Assembly: GCA_003210055.1 (NCBI GenBank)
Contig: QCNS01000008.1
Location: forward strand, 1 to 64,000
Source: SAR116 cluster bacterium AG-426-I14
GTDB taxonomy: Bacteria > Pseudomonadota > Alphaproteobacteria > Puniceispirillales > Marisalimonadaceae
Direction: 5' to 3'
Length of the DNA: 64,000 nucleotides
The notes under the pieces were generated by a model, which worked only from the letters and a program-made list of their open reading frames with translations, was not told the origin of the DNA and did no database searches. The position numbers and the translations under genes are program-made. The first letter of the stretch is position 1. Every line of letters starts with the position of its first letter. This document shows positions 4,122 through 13,927 of the stretch, piece by piece.

Positions 4122-5153
4122 CTAAGTAATATTTGGATGGTCTTTATCATATGGCAATTTTAATCCTAAATGCGCCCATCCATTTTTAGTCAATAACCTT
4201 CCTCTATTTGATCTTTCAATAAAACCTTGTTGTAACAAATATGGCTCAACAATCTCTTCAATCATATCTTTTTGTTCAGATAAAACAGCAGATATAGTTT
4301 CAAGTCCAACTGGACCACCTAAAAACTTTTCTGCAATTAACTTTAAATATTTTCTATCCATAGTATCTAAACCAAATTCGTCAATATCAAGTTGGGCTAA
4401 CGCATCTTTTACTAACATAGTATTAATTTTATCAATTTTATTTACAGATAAAATATCTCGAATCCTTCTTAATAATCGCCCAGCCACTCTAGGAGTACCT
4501 CGAGCCCTTCTAGCAATTTCATTTGCCCCCTCTTCAGGTAAATTTAAATCTAATTTTTTTGCAGAATGTAACAATATATTTTTTAAATCTTCAATTTCAT
4601 AAAATTCCATCCTTATCTGGATTCCAAATCTATCTCTGAGCGGTGTGGTCAAAAGGCCGGCACGTGTAGTTGCTCCAACTAAAGTAAATGGAGGAACATC
4701 AATTCTTATAGATCTTGCACCTGGTCCTTCTCCTATAATTAAGTCTATTTGAAAATCTTCCATAGCAGAATAAAGGTATTCTTCAATATTATTCGATAAT
4801 CGATGAATTTCATCTATAAACAATATATCTTTTGGTTGCAAATTAGTTAAGATAGCTGCTAAATCACCAGTCTTATTTATAATTGGCCCAGATGTTGTTC
4901 TAATTCCCACATTTAATTCGTTAGAAATAATGTGAGATAATGTTGTTTTGCCTAATCCCGGAGGACCATGAAGAAGAATATGATCCATAGGTTCATCTCT
5001 TATAGATGCGGCTTTTATAAAAGTTGATAGATTTTTTTGAACTTGGGGTTGACCAATAAAATCATTAAGATTTTTTGGTCTTAAAGCTATATCAAACTTG
5101 TTAAACAACTCTTCGTTAAAAGTTGGGTTGTCATCATTTAATTCGTTTTCCAA
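4122..5153 (-). CDS. ruvB: Holliday junction branch migration ATPase RuvB
   Basis: Hexameric AAA+ motor that drives branch migration of Holliday junctions with RuvA. The sequence shows the Walker A motif [10 protein letters not shown], the Walker B DEIH, sensor TTRAGLL and the arginine-finger region LRDRFG. A C-terminal winged-helix domain has the typical GGPVGLETI and [12 protein letters not shown] segments. The 343-residue length is normal. It follows ruvA with three bases between them, in the order ruvC-ruvA-ruvB. Confidence 0.98.
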
Positions 5154-5156
5154 TTT

Positions 5157-5810
5157 TTATCCTGACAAGTTTTTTAATGCTAAAGGAATTATTTTTTCAA
5201 TACTTATATCAATCATATTACCATCTTTATTCAAGTCTTTCTTTACATTCATGACCGCCTTAAAAGCTTCACTTCTTGAGTAGCCTAAATTAACAATAGC
5301 AGAGATTGAGTCGTTAAAAAATTCTTCTTTTGCAGTGTTAGATTTTTTTTCTGATGGAACATTATTAACATTTTTATAACCATAGGTTTCTTCGTCAGAA
5401 AAATTAAAAGTATTAATTTTGTCTTGCAATTCTGATACAATTCTTGAAGCTACTTTAGAACCAATGCCGTCTGCATTTAAAAAAACTGTTTTATCTCCAG
5501 CAGTTATACCCAAAATAATATCATCTACTTCTAAAGCAGACAAAATTGAAAGTGATGCTTTTGGACCTATACCCTGAATTGATTGAAGAACCCTAAAAAT
5601 ATTAATTTCTTTTTGAGACAAGAAACCATACATCAATATTTTATCATCTTTAATTTGTAAATCCGTATAAAAAGTAACAACCGAACCAATTTCATGAGGA
5701 TGAGATAATGTTTTTTTAGAAACATTCAATTTGTATCCAATACCATTAACTTCAACTATTATAGATGAGTCGAGTTTTATTCTCAATTTACCTGTTACTG
5801 ATGCAATCAT
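5157..5810 (-). CDS. ruvA: Holliday junction DNA helicase subunit RuvA
   Basis: RuvA tetramers bind four-way junctions and load RuvB. The N-terminal OB fold begins MIASVTGKL. The tandem helix-hairpin-helix region contains QSIQGIGPKASLSIL and ADGIGSKVASRIVSEL at about residues 70-130. A flexible acidic linker and the C-terminal RuvB-binding domain (LGYSRSEAFKAV) follow. At 217 residues it is slightly longer than E. coli RuvA, mainly in the linker. It is an operon member between ruvC and ruvB. Confidence 0.97.
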   Translation of the reverse strand: MIASVTGKLRIKLDSSIIVEVNGIGYKLNVSKKTLSHPHEIGSVVTFYTDLQIKDDKILMYGFLSQKEINIFRVLQSIQGIGPKASLSILSALEVDDIILGITAGDKTVFLNADGIGSKVASRIVSELQDKINTFNFSDEETYGYKNVNNVPSEKKSNTAKEEFFNDSISAIVNLGYSRSEAFKAVMNVKKDLNKDGNMIDISIEKIIPLALKNLSG

Positions 5811-9419: not shown

Positions 9420-10346
9420 ATGAAGATAAGTAAAAATGTGAAGAAGATTTTAGAAAATTATGAAAGTGATAACCCTGGAGTAAAATCTAATCTAGCAAGA
9501 ATTCTAATGAATGGAAAACTTGGTGGAACAGGAAAGCTTCTAATATTACCTGTTGATCAAGGTTTTGAACATGGGCCAGCTAGATCTTTTTCAATGAATC
9601 AAATTGCATATGATCCAGAATATCATTTTAATCTTGCAATAGATGCAGGTTTGTCAGCTTTCGCTGCCCCATTAGGAATGCTTGAAGCGTGTGCTAACTC
9701 ATTTGCCGGACAAATACCTCTAATAATGAAGATTAATAGTTCGAACTCTCTTTCAAGAGACAAAGAAGGCCCAACACAAGCATTAACCGGTTCGGTCTCA
9801 GAGGCTGTAAGACTAGGTTGTTCTGCTGTTGGATTTACTATTTACCCTGGCTCTGATAGTTCTTTAGATATGATGAGTGAGATTCAAGACATAGCTGCTG
9901 AAGCTAAGGCAATGGGTTTGGCTGTGGTTTTATGGAGTTATCCTCGCGGAGGTAACATTAGTAAGGATGGAGAAACTGCAGTTGATATAGTAGCATATGC
10001 CGCTCATATGGCAGCTTTGTTAGGTGCTCACATTATAAAAGTTAAACCTCCAACAGAACATTTAGAGTTAGAAGAAGCAAAAAAGGAATATTTAAAGCAA
10101 AAAATTCCTATCAAAAACTTATCAGAACGCATAAGACATGTTGTTCAGTCTTGTTTTAATGGCAAAAGAATAGTTGTTTTCTCTGGAGGGTCCTCTAAAG
10201 ATACCGATGGCTTACTTACGGAAATAAAATCTATTTACCAAGGAGGTGCAAATGGTTCTATTATTGGAAGAAACTCTTTTCAAAGACCAAGAGAAGAGGC
10301 AATAAATCTATTGAATAGAATTATTGATATTTATAGAGGAAAATGA
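9420..10346 (+). CDS. fba: Class I fructose-bisphosphate aldolase (DhnA/FbaB type)
   Basis: Schiff-base aldolase that splits or forms fructose 1,6-bisphosphate in glycolysis and gluconeogenesis. The archaeal-type (DhnA) signature is clear: LILPVDQGFEHGP near residue 40, the phosphate-binding VFSGGSSKDTDG and NGSIIGRNSFQRP segments, and the Schiff-base Lys region HIIKVKPPTEH at about residue 203. The length is 308 residues. It has a good GGAG site before the ATG. Its stop is directly followed by the efp ATG, so the two are probably co-transcribed. Confidence 0.92.
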   Translation: MKISKNVKKILENYESDNPGVKSNLARILMNGKLGGTGKLLILPVDQGFEHGPARSFSMNQIAYDPEYHFNLAIDAGLSAFAAPLGMLEACANSFAGQIPLIMKINSSNSLSRDKEGPTQALTGSVSEAVRLGCSAVGFTIYPGSDSSLDMMSEIQDIAAEAKAMGLAVVLWSYPRGGNISKDGETAVDIVAYAAHMAALLGAHIIKVKPPTEHLELEEAKKEYLKQKIPIKNLSERIRHVVQSCFNGKRIVVFSGGSSKDTDGLLTEIKSIYQGGANGSIIGRNSFQRPREEAINLLNRIIDIYRGK

Positions 10347-10913
10347 ATGAAAATAAATGCTAATTCATTAAAAGTAGGTAATGTTTTAAGTCATAATAAC
10401 GAATTATGGACAGTAGTAAAAATTAATCATGTAAAACCAGGTAAAGGAGGAGCATTTATTCAAACTGAATTAAAAAATTTAAAAGATTTCAGAAAATTGA
10501 ATGAAAGATTTAGATCAACAGAAAATCTTGAAAGAATTATTCTAGAAGAAAAAAAAGCCACTTTTCTCTATAAAGATAGTTTAAATTACATTTTTATGGA
10601 TACTGAAACGTACGATCAAATAGAAATTAATGAACATATTATAGGTGAACAAAAAGTATTTTTAACTGATGGAATGGAAATTACAATTAATACATTTGAA
10701 AATGATATAACTTCTGTAATTCTGCCTGAAACATGTGAAGTTGAAGTTATTGAAGCAGATGCAGTTATCAAAGGTCAAACTGTATCATCATCCTTTAAAC
10801 CAGCAATAGTGAATAATAATATTAAAGTAATGGTTCCTCCACATATTGAAATTGGTACAAAAATTATTGTTAGACCAATAGATGGATCATATGTTGAAAA
10901 ATCAAAAAATTAA
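10347..10913 (+). CDS. efp: Translation elongation factor P
   Basis: EF-P relieves ribosome stalling at consecutive prolines. All three beta-barrel domains are present in 188 residues. Domain I has the loop KPGKGGAFIQ at about residues 32-41, whose Lys is the residue modified in many bacteria. The C-terminal domain ends GTKIIVRPIDGSYVEKSK. No EpmA or EpmB-like modification gene is in the window. The ATG immediately follows the aldolase stop, with an AGAGG site inside the aldolase end. Confidence 0.96.
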   Translation: MKINANSLKVGNVLSHNNELWTVVKINHVKPGKGGAFIQTELKNLKDFRKLNERFRSTENLERIILEEKKATFLYKDSLNYIFMDTETYDQIEINEHIIGEQKVFLTDGMEITINTFENDITSVILPETCEVEVIEADAVIKGQTVSSSFKPAIVNNNIKVMVPPHIEIGTKIIVRPIDGSYVEKSKN

Positions 10914-10936: not shown

Positions 10937-11710
10937 ATGTCTATCAAATCGCCATTAATTAATGTAATTCAAAAATCTATATCAAGAGTATCTCGAAGAC
11001 TTGTTAGAGATTTTGGTGAAATTGAAAATCTTCAATTATCTGATGAAAAAATTGAAAGATTTGCTTATAATAGCTTTTCTTACGTTCATAAAACTCTGGA
11101 GGATGAACTTAAACTTAGCCGACCTGAATGGCCTTTTTTTACAAGAAAAAATTATAACCCCAGTAACATGAGTTTTGATAAAGTTGAATATTCTTGGATT
11201 GTTGAACCAATAAATGGTTATGATAATTTTGTCAGAGGTATCCCATTATTTGCAATATCTATTGCAGTAAAAAAAAATCAAGAAATCATTGCTAGTTCAA
11301 TTTTTGATCCTAATCGTGATGAATTTTTTTTTGCAGAGAAAGGTAAGGGAGCATATTTAAATGATAGACGTATTAGAGTTTCAAATAGAAAAAGTTTAAA
11401 GAACTCTCTAATATGTATTGAAAATAATTTTGAAAATATTCTACCAAAAAAACTTTCTGAATTACAAAGAATAAATAATATTAAAATTAGATTGATTTCA
11501 TGTACTTCGCTATGTTTTGCATGGTTATCAAGTGGTAAAATTGACTGTTTTGTAGGTAAAAATGTTAACAACTTTATATCTGAGAGTGGTAAATTAATTT
11601 TGAGAGAATCAGGAGGTTTTTATTCAGAATTTTCATCAGAAACTAATTTTGATTTAATTGTTGCAAACCCCTCAATCCATAAAGAAATTATAAAGTCAAT
11701 GAATTTTTAA
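10937..11710 (+). CDS. SuhB/inositol monophosphatase-like protein, probably catalytically inactive
   Basis: The fold is that of the inositol monophosphatase family: the region from LINVIQ through IPLFAISIAV, FDPNRDEFFFAEKGKGAYLNDRRIRVS and the C-terminal ANPSIHKEI aligns well with SuhB-type enzymes. However, the Mg-binding motifs are all changed. The usual D-P-[LI]-D-G-T is E-P-I-N-G-Y (residues 90-95), the upstream Glu-Glu pair is replaced near residues 70-72, and the C-terminal Trp-Asp motif is Phe-Ile (213-214). I infer loss of phosphatase activity with the fold kept. E. coli SuhB has a non-enzymatic role in rRNA antitermination, so a retained scaffold role is possible. It follows efp with an AGGA ribosome site, and the frame is intact over 257 residues. 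Confidence 0.8.
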   Translation: MSIKSPLINVIQKSISRVSRRLVRDFGEIENLQLSDEKIERFAYNSFSYVHKTLEDELKLSRPEWPFFTRKNYNPSNMSFDKVEYSWIVEPINGYDNFVRGIPLFAISIAVKKNQEIIASSIFDPNRDEFFFAEKGKGAYLNDRRIRVSNRKSLKNSLICIENNFENILPKKLSELQRINNIKIRLISCTSLCFAWLSSGKIDCFVGKNVNNFISESGKLILRESGGFYSEFSSETNFDLIVANPSIHKEIIKSMNF

Positions 11711-11770: not shown

Positions 11771-12802
11771 ATGACAAATCCAAATAAATATGCTTTTAGA
11801 ATGATACTATTGTTGTTAATAGTTGGATGTTTGTCATGGGTTCTTTATGAACCTTTAAAAGAAGCCTTTGACGGTAATCAGGCTCTAAATGGAGTAATAT
11901 TAGGAACTTTTTTAGTGGGTATCATTTTCTCTTTTAGACAAACTTTTAGGCTAAGTAGAGAAGCTAATTGGTTAAAATATATCAAACGAACAGACACACT
12001 CTTGCCAGCCAACCTCGCCTCTAAAACAAAACCAGTCTTACTTGCCCCTGTTGCAGCCGTTCTTAGTGAAGATAGAACTGAAAATCCATCATTAACTGCT
12101 AACTCATTATCAACAATTTTAGGTGGAGTGTCATCTAGATTAGACGAAAATAGAGACATATTGAGATATATGATTGGACTATTAGTTTTTTTAGGCCTAC
12201 TTGGTACCTTTTGGGGATTGCTCCAAACAATTTCTTCTGTTTCAACTGTAATCAATACTTTAGATATTCCAAATACGAATACAAATGAAAATATTTTTAA
12301 TAAGATACTTAATGGTTTAAATGCCCCAATGTCTGGTATGTCTACTGCCTTTTCATCATCATTATTCGGTTTAGGAAGTTCTTTAATATTAGGTTTTTTA
12401 GATTTACAAGTGGGACAAGCAAATAATAGATTTTTTAATGAATTGGAAGATTGGTTATCTCAAATGGCAATTTTTACAACTACAAATGAGCCAGGAAATG
12501 TTGGATTAGGTGAAGCAGCTATAGAAAATCTTGCTATAGTCTCTAAACGAGCAGCTCAGCAAGAAAATGAAAACGTCAGAATATCAGAAAAATTAAACGA
12601 TTTAAACTTAGCCCTCAATAGGTTAGTAGAAAAATTGGATGAAGAAAAAAATTTAAAAGAACAACTAAATGATTTAAATGTAAACGTAAAAAATATTTTA
12701 GAAACAGACAAAATAAATTCAGCTGAATTACTTAATGGACTAACTATTGAGTTAAGAGCTATTGGAAAACAACTTAATAATTCTAATAAAAGTAATAATT
12801 AA
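11771..12802 (+). CDS. MotA/TolQ/ExbB-like stator protein (non-flagellar)
   Basis: Predicted inner-membrane proton-channel subunit of 343 residues. Membrane segments lie at about residues 9-27, 35-53, 130-150 and 190-213. The last two (GLLVFLGLLGTFWGLLQTI and a Ser/Gly-rich helix) match the pore helices of the MotA/ExbB superfamily. A cytoplasmic helical tail with coiled-coil character runs from about 250 to the end. It is paired with the MotB/OmpA-like gene three bases downstream. No flagellar gene is seen, and the tail is far shorter than that of ZorA. The work this stator powers is unknown. Confidence 0.75.
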   Translation: MTNPNKYAFRMILLLLIVGCLSWVLYEPLKEAFDGNQALNGVILGTFLVGIIFSFRQTFRLSREANWLKYIKRTDTLLPANLASKTKPVLLAPVAAVLSEDRTENPSLTANSLSTILGGVSSRLDENRDILRYMIGLLVFLGLLGTFWGLLQTISSVSTVINTLDIPNTNTNENIFNKILNGLNAPMSGMSTAFSSSLFGLGSSLILGFLDLQVGQANNRFFNELEDWLSQMAIFTTTNEPGNVGLGEAAIENLAIVSKRAAQQENENVRISEKLNDLNLALNRLVEKLDEEKNLKEQLNDLNVNVKNILETDKINSAELLNGLTIELRAIGKQLNNSNKSNN

Positions 12803-12805
12803 ATA

Positions 12806-13927
12806 ATGTTATCTCAAAAATTTAGACCTAAACCTGAGAATTATACATGGCCAGGTTTTGTTGATGCTTTAGCAAGTTTGTTAATGGTAATCATTTTTGT
12901 TTTAATGGTTTTTGTAATAGCTCAATTTTATGTTTCTCAAAAATTAAGTGGTAAAGATAGAGCTCTTATTGAAATGGAAAGCAAAATTATTGCACTCAAC
13001 GAACAACTTGCTATTGAAAAAAAAGTTAACTCTAAACTATCTTCAGATCTTAATATACTCGAAAATAAATATAATAATCAACAAATCATATTATCACAAA
13101 AAGAAAATTTAATTAAAAACAATGAAACAATTTTAAATCTTAAAGAATTTGAAATAAACAAGTTGAATGAGGAATTAAAAAATAAAATACTTGTTCTATC
13201 AAATATGAAAATAAAATTAGATAATGTTAAAAATTTGTCATCAAAAAAAGATGCTAACTTTAAAAAAACAGAAAGTGACTTATTAGCCTCAAAAAAAGAG
13301 ATAAAAGCTTTACTTGCAGCTTCAAAAAAATTGCAGTCTAGAATAAATAAGTTGAAAAACTTGCTTGCTGTATATAAAGCCAAAGATATTAAGGATAAAG
13401 TGAAAAACCTTAATTTGGGTAAAAATCTAAACTCTGCATTAGCGAGAAGAGTTGAAGAACTTCAAAAATTTAAATCGGAGTTTTTTGGAAGAGTTAAAGA
13501 AAAACTCAAGAATAGACCTGAAATTAAAATTGTTGGAGATAGGTTTGTTTTTCAGTCTGAAGTTTTATTTCAAACTGCATCTGCAAAGATTGAACAAAAA
13601 GGTGAAAAAGAACTTGAAAGACTAGCTTCAATTCTTCTCGACATTGAGAATACACTTCCAAAAGATATAAATTGGATTTTACAAATTGAAGGTCATACAG
13701 ATAACTTGCCCGTAAAAGAAAACCAAGAATTTGCAGATAATTGGGAGTTATCAACTGAAAGAGCTCTTTCTGTTCTGAGGTTTTTTATAAAACAAGGTTT
13801 AAAACCAGAAAGACTATTTGCTTCTGGATATGGAAGTTTTAAACCAATAGATAATAAAAATAACGAAAAAAGTAGATCAAAAAATAGAAGGATTGAGATT
13901 AAAATTACTCAAAAGTTAGGTTCCTAA
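12806..13927 (+). CDS. MotB-like OmpA-domain peptidoglycan-binding protein
   Basis: Single-span partner of the preceding MotA-like channel. A short cytoplasmic N-terminus leads to the membrane helix at about residues 20-45, which begins FVDALASLLMV. The Asp at residue 20 occupies the position of the proton-binding Asp in MotB. A long periplasmic coiled coil (about 55-225) follows, then a C-terminal OmpA domain with EGHTDNLPV, NWELSTERA and SKNRRIEIKI, which should bind peptidoglycan. The length is 373 residues. The coiled coil is longer than in MotB, suggesting a stalk that reaches the cell wall. Confidence 0.8.
   Translation: MLSQKFRPKPENYTWPGFVDALASLLMVIIFVLMVFVIAQFYVSQKLSGKDRALIEMESKIIALNEQLAIEKKVNSKLSSDLNILENKYNNQQIILSQKENLIKNNETILNLKEFEINKLNEELKNKILVLSNMKIKLDNVKNLSSKKDANFKKTESDLLASKKEIKALLAASKKLQSRINKLKNLLAVYKAKDIKDKVKNLNLGKNLNSALARRVEELQKFKSEFFGRVKEKLKNRPEIKIVGDRFVFQSEVLFQTASAKIEQKGEKELERLASILLDIENTLPKDINWILQIEGHTDNLPVKENQEFADNWELSTERALSVLRFFIKQGLKPERLFASGYGSFKPIDNKNNEKSRSKNRRIEIKITQKLGS

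Follow-up and report, generated by a model that had tools for sequence, protein, structure and literature searches.

Sequence comparisons indicate that the catalytic site of SuhB, a protein of the inositol monophosphatase (IMPase) family, has been lost many separate times in Alphaproteobacteria. The SuhB encoded in the SAR116 window (the whole stretch of DNA analyzed, 64,000 nucleotides) is one such case. We consider it somewhat probable that these proteins represent a recurrent pseudoenzyme kept for a noncatalytic role, most likely in the Nus/rRNA transcription complex. The first-pass annotation of this DNA had proposed a selected pseudoenzyme, and that part of its reading is well supported by a loss that is both clade-wide and recurrent, the open frames, omega values of ~0.1, and the retention of noncatalytic invariant residues.

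A SuhB fold without its metal ligands

The suhB frame (Table 1) has an ATG start with AGGA 5' of the start codon, and its product matches the Pfam Inositol_P profile (PF00459) over residues 48 to 253 (E = 3.9e-24; 86 bits, cutoff of 27). The best match among PDB sequences is Bartonella SuhB (3luz; E = 4.8e-33), and the SuhB proteins of P. aeruginosa and E. coli match as well. An AlphaFold model based on 51 relatives has a mean pLDDT of 90.4, and Foldseek matches it to 3luz (E = 8.5e-23; TM score = 0.81), to E. coli SuhB, to 6ib8 (SuhB-NusA AR2), and to SuhB as present in the rrn antitermination complex (6tqn). The IMPase-family fold and open frame described in the first-pass annotation are borne out by these matches, and both sequence and model indicate that the fold is kept. 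The closest solved structure, Bartonella henselae SuhB (3luz and 3lv0), has the alphaproteobacterial N-terminal motif (RDYGEVQNLQ) but, unlike the window protein, retains D-P-L-D-G-T.

Table 1. Features of the suhB region of the window (former residues in E. coli numbering)
Feature	Position	Strand	Basis
Fructose-bisphosphate aldolase (class I), at the head of the likely operon	9420..10346	+	
efp (elongation factor P), upstream neighbor conserved in catalytic and degenerate genomes	10347..10913	+	
Putative suhB-type pseudoenzyme CDS, 257 aa	10937..11710	+	open frame, Pfam, PDB matches, model
RDFGEIENLQ, residues 24-33, end of first helix; alphaproteobacterial SuhB motif	11006..11035	+	
E37, replacing invariant K34	11045..11047	+	alignment
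F47, replacing invariant D44	11075..11077	+	alignment
R70-K71, replacing metal-ligand pair E67-E68	11144..11149	+	alignment
E-P-I-N-G-Y, replacing D84-P-[LI]-D87-G-T89	11204..11221	+	alignment
R185, retained invariant Arg (E. coli R183)	11489..11491	+	alignment
F213-I214, replacing W211-D212	11573..11578	+	alignment
MotA/TolQ/ExbB-type gene, downstream neighbor outside proposed function	11771..12802	+	profile match

By alignment, all four metal ligands are replaced in the window SuhB: E67 by R70, D84 by E90, D87 by N93, and D212 by I214. The three motif changes originally read from the letters were recovered, with E-P-I-N-G-Y in place of D-P-[LI]-D-G-T at exactly 11204 to 11221, the upstream Glu-Glu pair aligning with R70-K71, and the C-terminal Trp-Asp aligning with F213-I214. 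Also replaced are K34 and D44, each present in 199 of 199 catalytic alphaproteobacterial SuhB proteins, and T89 (198 of 199), which is Y95 here. Chance or sequencing error is excluded as the source of the lost site, because a congener (59% identity) and every member of the window's family that was read share the loss. With all metal ligands gone, the window SuhB is not expected to use the known IMPase mechanism to hydrolyze phosphate monoesters.

It seems to us quite improbable that SuhB remains active as an enzyme, whether through a rebuilt site or through a new chemistry. The substitutions are conserved in the family, and one genus (g2) has N/D/N/Q at the former ligands and R or K at the former T89; but the window protein has lost K34 and D44 along with every ligand, the residues at the ligand sites are unrelated between degenerate lineages, and no alternative ligand set is invariant. 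A basic residue substituting for the metal was rejected as a general feature: R or K occupies the T89 position in 31 of 40 cases in the window family but is not common elsewhere among degenerate lineages, and the window protein has Y95 there.

Genomic setting and family paralogues

The genes for fructose-bisphosphate aldolase, efp, suhB, MotA/ExbB, and OmpA follow one another in this order. The first three likely form an operon, because the aldolase stop codon is followed immediately by efp, and suhB follows efp by 23 nt. Positions 11771 to 13927 hold the MotA/TolQ/ExbB-type gene, whose match to ZorA is weak and sub-cutoff (E = 2e-4), and then a gene for an OmpA-domain peptidoglycan-binding protein.

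The window genome (1.88 Mb; 78% complete) encodes three further Inositol_P family members with intact motifs, namely, a CysQ-Sua5 fusion, a CysQ/HisN-like protein, and a HisN-like protein. These distant paralogues have the family fold in common with the window SuhB but, unlike it, keep the Glu and DPIDGT motifs. The first-pass annotation had suggested looking for a second, catalytic SuhB copy; none was found among these CysQ-like, HisN-like, and CysQ-Sua5 proteins, an absence that is not final because the genome is only 78% complete. In the fusion (contig C2, ~4959 to 5687, minus strand), CysQ (3'(2'),5'-bisphosphate nucleotidase) is joined to the TsaC/Sua5 threonylcarbamoyl-AMP synthase in a single frame of 594 to 598 aa. 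Frames of ~540 to 613 aa at equivalent CysQ matches recur across the window's family (f1), and none was listed for the related families f2 to f4.

Loss across the SAR116 family and state of the site in its order

The named members of f1 are SAR116 cluster single-cell genomes. The site is lost in every f1 copy read, always at the efp-linked locus, and an order census found suhB in the f1 genomes whose completeness is 84% or higher. The sister families f2 and f4 keep E/D/D/D apart from one partial case, and the site is lost in f3 too, either separately from f1 or jointly with it. The partial case belongs to genus g17 of f4, in which E67 has become K and T89 has become N while D84, D87, and D212 are kept; in an otherwise catalytic family, this sequence may represent an intermediate.

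On the efp tree, the order forms one clade (support, 99), with f1 beside the catalytic f2 and f4. The efp-linked locus and the monophyly of the order, which the approximately unbiased (AU) test does not reject (P = 0.46), mark the window protein as an alphaproteobacterial orthologue, and the sequence evidence indicates a vertically inherited, efp-linked alphaproteobacterial SuhB. The clade-wide alignment that had been recommended as a check found all f1 copies read to be degenerate and the loss to recur across the class.

Recurrence across Alphaproteobacteria

The class search covered 337 alphaproteobacterial genomes, taken at a completeness of ≥85% with the window's own genome added, and 314 genomes had a match. 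We read 157 copies from outside the order; because this class sample was deliberately weighted toward weak matches, its rates are not population estimates. Degenerate copies, keeping no more than two of the four ligands, were found in 35 of the 157 genomes of this weighted sample, representing 22 families, and one further copy keeps three ligands. Degenerate SuhB is present in at least 35 of the 314 matching genomes. Catalytic and degenerate states both occur within families f31, f100, f26, f74, and f65, with f100 including “Candidatus Endolissoclinum faulkneri” L5 and probably its sister strain L2. Among the weak class matches, several (e.g., L196, L198, and L199) are very long-branched SuhB sequences from genomes of 0.6 to 2 Mb, and some close relatives of these genomes (G268 and G427) had no match at all.

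The full SuhB tree, in which long degenerate branches are drawn together, gives 4 state changes, and the tree built by a careful search without the three ligand motifs gives 8 (bootstrap range, 6 to 10). The efp tree, which is weakly resolved but unaffected by the active site, gives ~17 changes, at least 6 of them on well-supported branches. A single origin of the degenerate form was rejected by the AU test, in which uniting all degenerate copies gave P = 1.3e-4. Repeated loss might still be mistaken for the spread, vertically or by transfer, of a single ancient noncatalytic paralogue, a reading consistent with the clustering of degenerate sequences on the SuhB tree. We regard it as very improbable: the clustering fits long-branch attraction, the AU test that rejects one degenerate clade leaves order monophyly standing, and catalytic copies occupy the same efp locus in close relatives (e.g., in f26, f31, and f100). 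Because the same change occurred many times, we strongly infer that the function selected at the efp-linked locus in degenerate lineages needs no catalysis.

Selection and retained residues

Degenerate SuhB clades are under strong purifying selection. Two degenerate genera gave codon-model omega values of 0.099 and 0.121, versus 0.087 for the catalytic sister (kappa stayed at 1 in these estimates), and NG86 medians were 0.138 for degenerate copies (235 pairs) versus 0.085 for catalytic copies (324 pairs). The dN/dS comparison that the first-pass annotation had called for thus came out at an omega of ~0.1 in degenerate genera. A pseudogene or sequencing error is ruled out by these values together with the open frames and the identical loss in relatives. 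Relaxed decay toward a pseudogene in streamlined genomes is, in our opinion, extremely improbable; degenerate copies are indeed commoner in small genomes (median, 1.4 versus 2.0 Mb; P = 0.004 in a biased sample), but all frames are open, omega is ~0.1, the noncatalytic invariants are kept, and suhB persists in the more complete f1 genomes of the census.

The pattern of retention was read from 37 columns with ≥95% conservation among the 199 catalytic copies, 10 of them in the active site and 27 elsewhere. In 24 degenerate copies, one per family, 23% of the active-site columns are retained versus 84% of the others (P = 6e-6). Four of the ten active-site columns themselves define the degenerate class; the remaining six (K34, D44, E68, P85, T89, and W211) are likewise only 23% kept. 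A loosened pattern for the RDFGExExLQ motif matches 96 of the 105 degenerate copies and 196 of the 200 catalytic ones.

Proposed role in the Nus/rRNA transcription complex

In E. coli, both the NusA AR2 domain and nut RNA are bound by SuhB, which NusB/E entry requires (PMC6614801); the suhB phenotype does not depend on the phosphatase activity of the protein (PMC6614801; PMC4807359). Homology and the presence of NusA AR2 make a Nus role the most likely one for the degenerate proteins as well. Degenerate SuhB would serve as a scaffold on RNA polymerase, binding NusA AR2 and nut-like RNA as E. coli SuhB does. This scaffold would aid NusB/NusE loading and support rRNA synthesis and folding, with the retained RDFGExExLQ element and Arg185 as candidate contact sites.

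NusA of the window genome has both C-terminal repeats, with an AR2 that is 37% identical to that of E. coli (E = 3e-11). Two AR2-contact positions of E. coli SuhB (K251, aligned with K249, and L254, aligned with I252) are kept in the window family and variable in other alphaproteobacteria. The window SuhB and E. coli SuhB (6ib7, 6ib8, and 6tqn) have in common the fold, a full-length alignment, the R183 equivalent, and other noncatalytic invariants. In contrast, the E. coli protein has every ligand in place and is active as an IMPase, carries NYETPDAVEA where alphaproteobacteria carry RDFGExExLQ, and is encoded in a different genomic context; its RNA polymerase-contact residue R184 aligns with L186 in the window protein. 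The natural separation of function that the first-pass annotation had raised for the Nus complex is plausible. NusA AR2 is present, but R184 is not kept and RDFGExExLQ is absent from E. coli SuhB, which counts against it. A literature search found no binding or transcription data on alphaproteobacterial SuhB.

A search for 16S, and thereby for boxA in the rRNA leader, found no 16S match in the genomes of the window family that were covered; a search for boxA near the window suhB gave no match above chance. The rRNA leader pattern matched only “Ca. Endolissoclinum,” in which the L2 and L5 leaders contain a boxA-like block (TGCTTTTTGACA...) that is 98% identical versus a leader mean of 63%. We read this block as a candidate boxA from its likeness to known leaders. 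Degenerate SuhB is present in these same genomes. About 280 nt before 16S, the leaders of the two strains have in common the near-identical block TGCTTTTTGACATTGTTTGTGAAGATGAAAGGGATGCG[TC]GGGCGGCGG.

Alternatively, the pseudoenzyme may have been selected for a noncatalytic role outside the Nus complex, for example, as a partner of EF-P, translation, or ribosome assembly through the RDFGExExLQ surface. This reading is rather unlikely but still substantial in our estimation. In the class sample, efp lies directly upstream of suhB in 26 of the 35 degenerate genomes and in 100 of the 121 catalytic ones, a linkage that could equally mean translation, and the best-conserved motif is not common to E. 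coli SuhB. However, neighbor conservation may reflect mere operon inertia, the fold and best structural matches include SuhB of Nus complexes, and NusA AR2 is encoded in the window genome. A role in the Nus complex is the reading that we prefer, at the strength given at the outset.

Implications

SuhB is already known as a moonlighting Nus factor; its repeated natural loss of the active site appears to be new. A literature search, with most subscription papers outside its scope, found no paper that paired SuhB or inositol monophosphatase with the term pseudoenzyme. To our knowledge, E. coli mutants are so far the sole approach taken to the question of whether SuhB IMPase activity matters for rRNA transcription. 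More tentatively, it is possible that SuhB function is noncatalytic throughout the class, exerted through an RDFGExExLQ and Arg185 surface that is partly missing in E. coli and engaging an undescribed transcription or translation partner, with catalysis being dispensable and independently lost more than 12 times.

Lineages that drop the active site and yet keep SuhB constitute a repeated natural experiment on what is essential in this protein, and comparison of catalytic and degenerate SuhB points to specific candidate contact residues. Many genes of marine and symbiotic Alphaproteobacteria that are annotated as “inositol monophosphatase” should not encode that enzyme, which would affect metabolic models.
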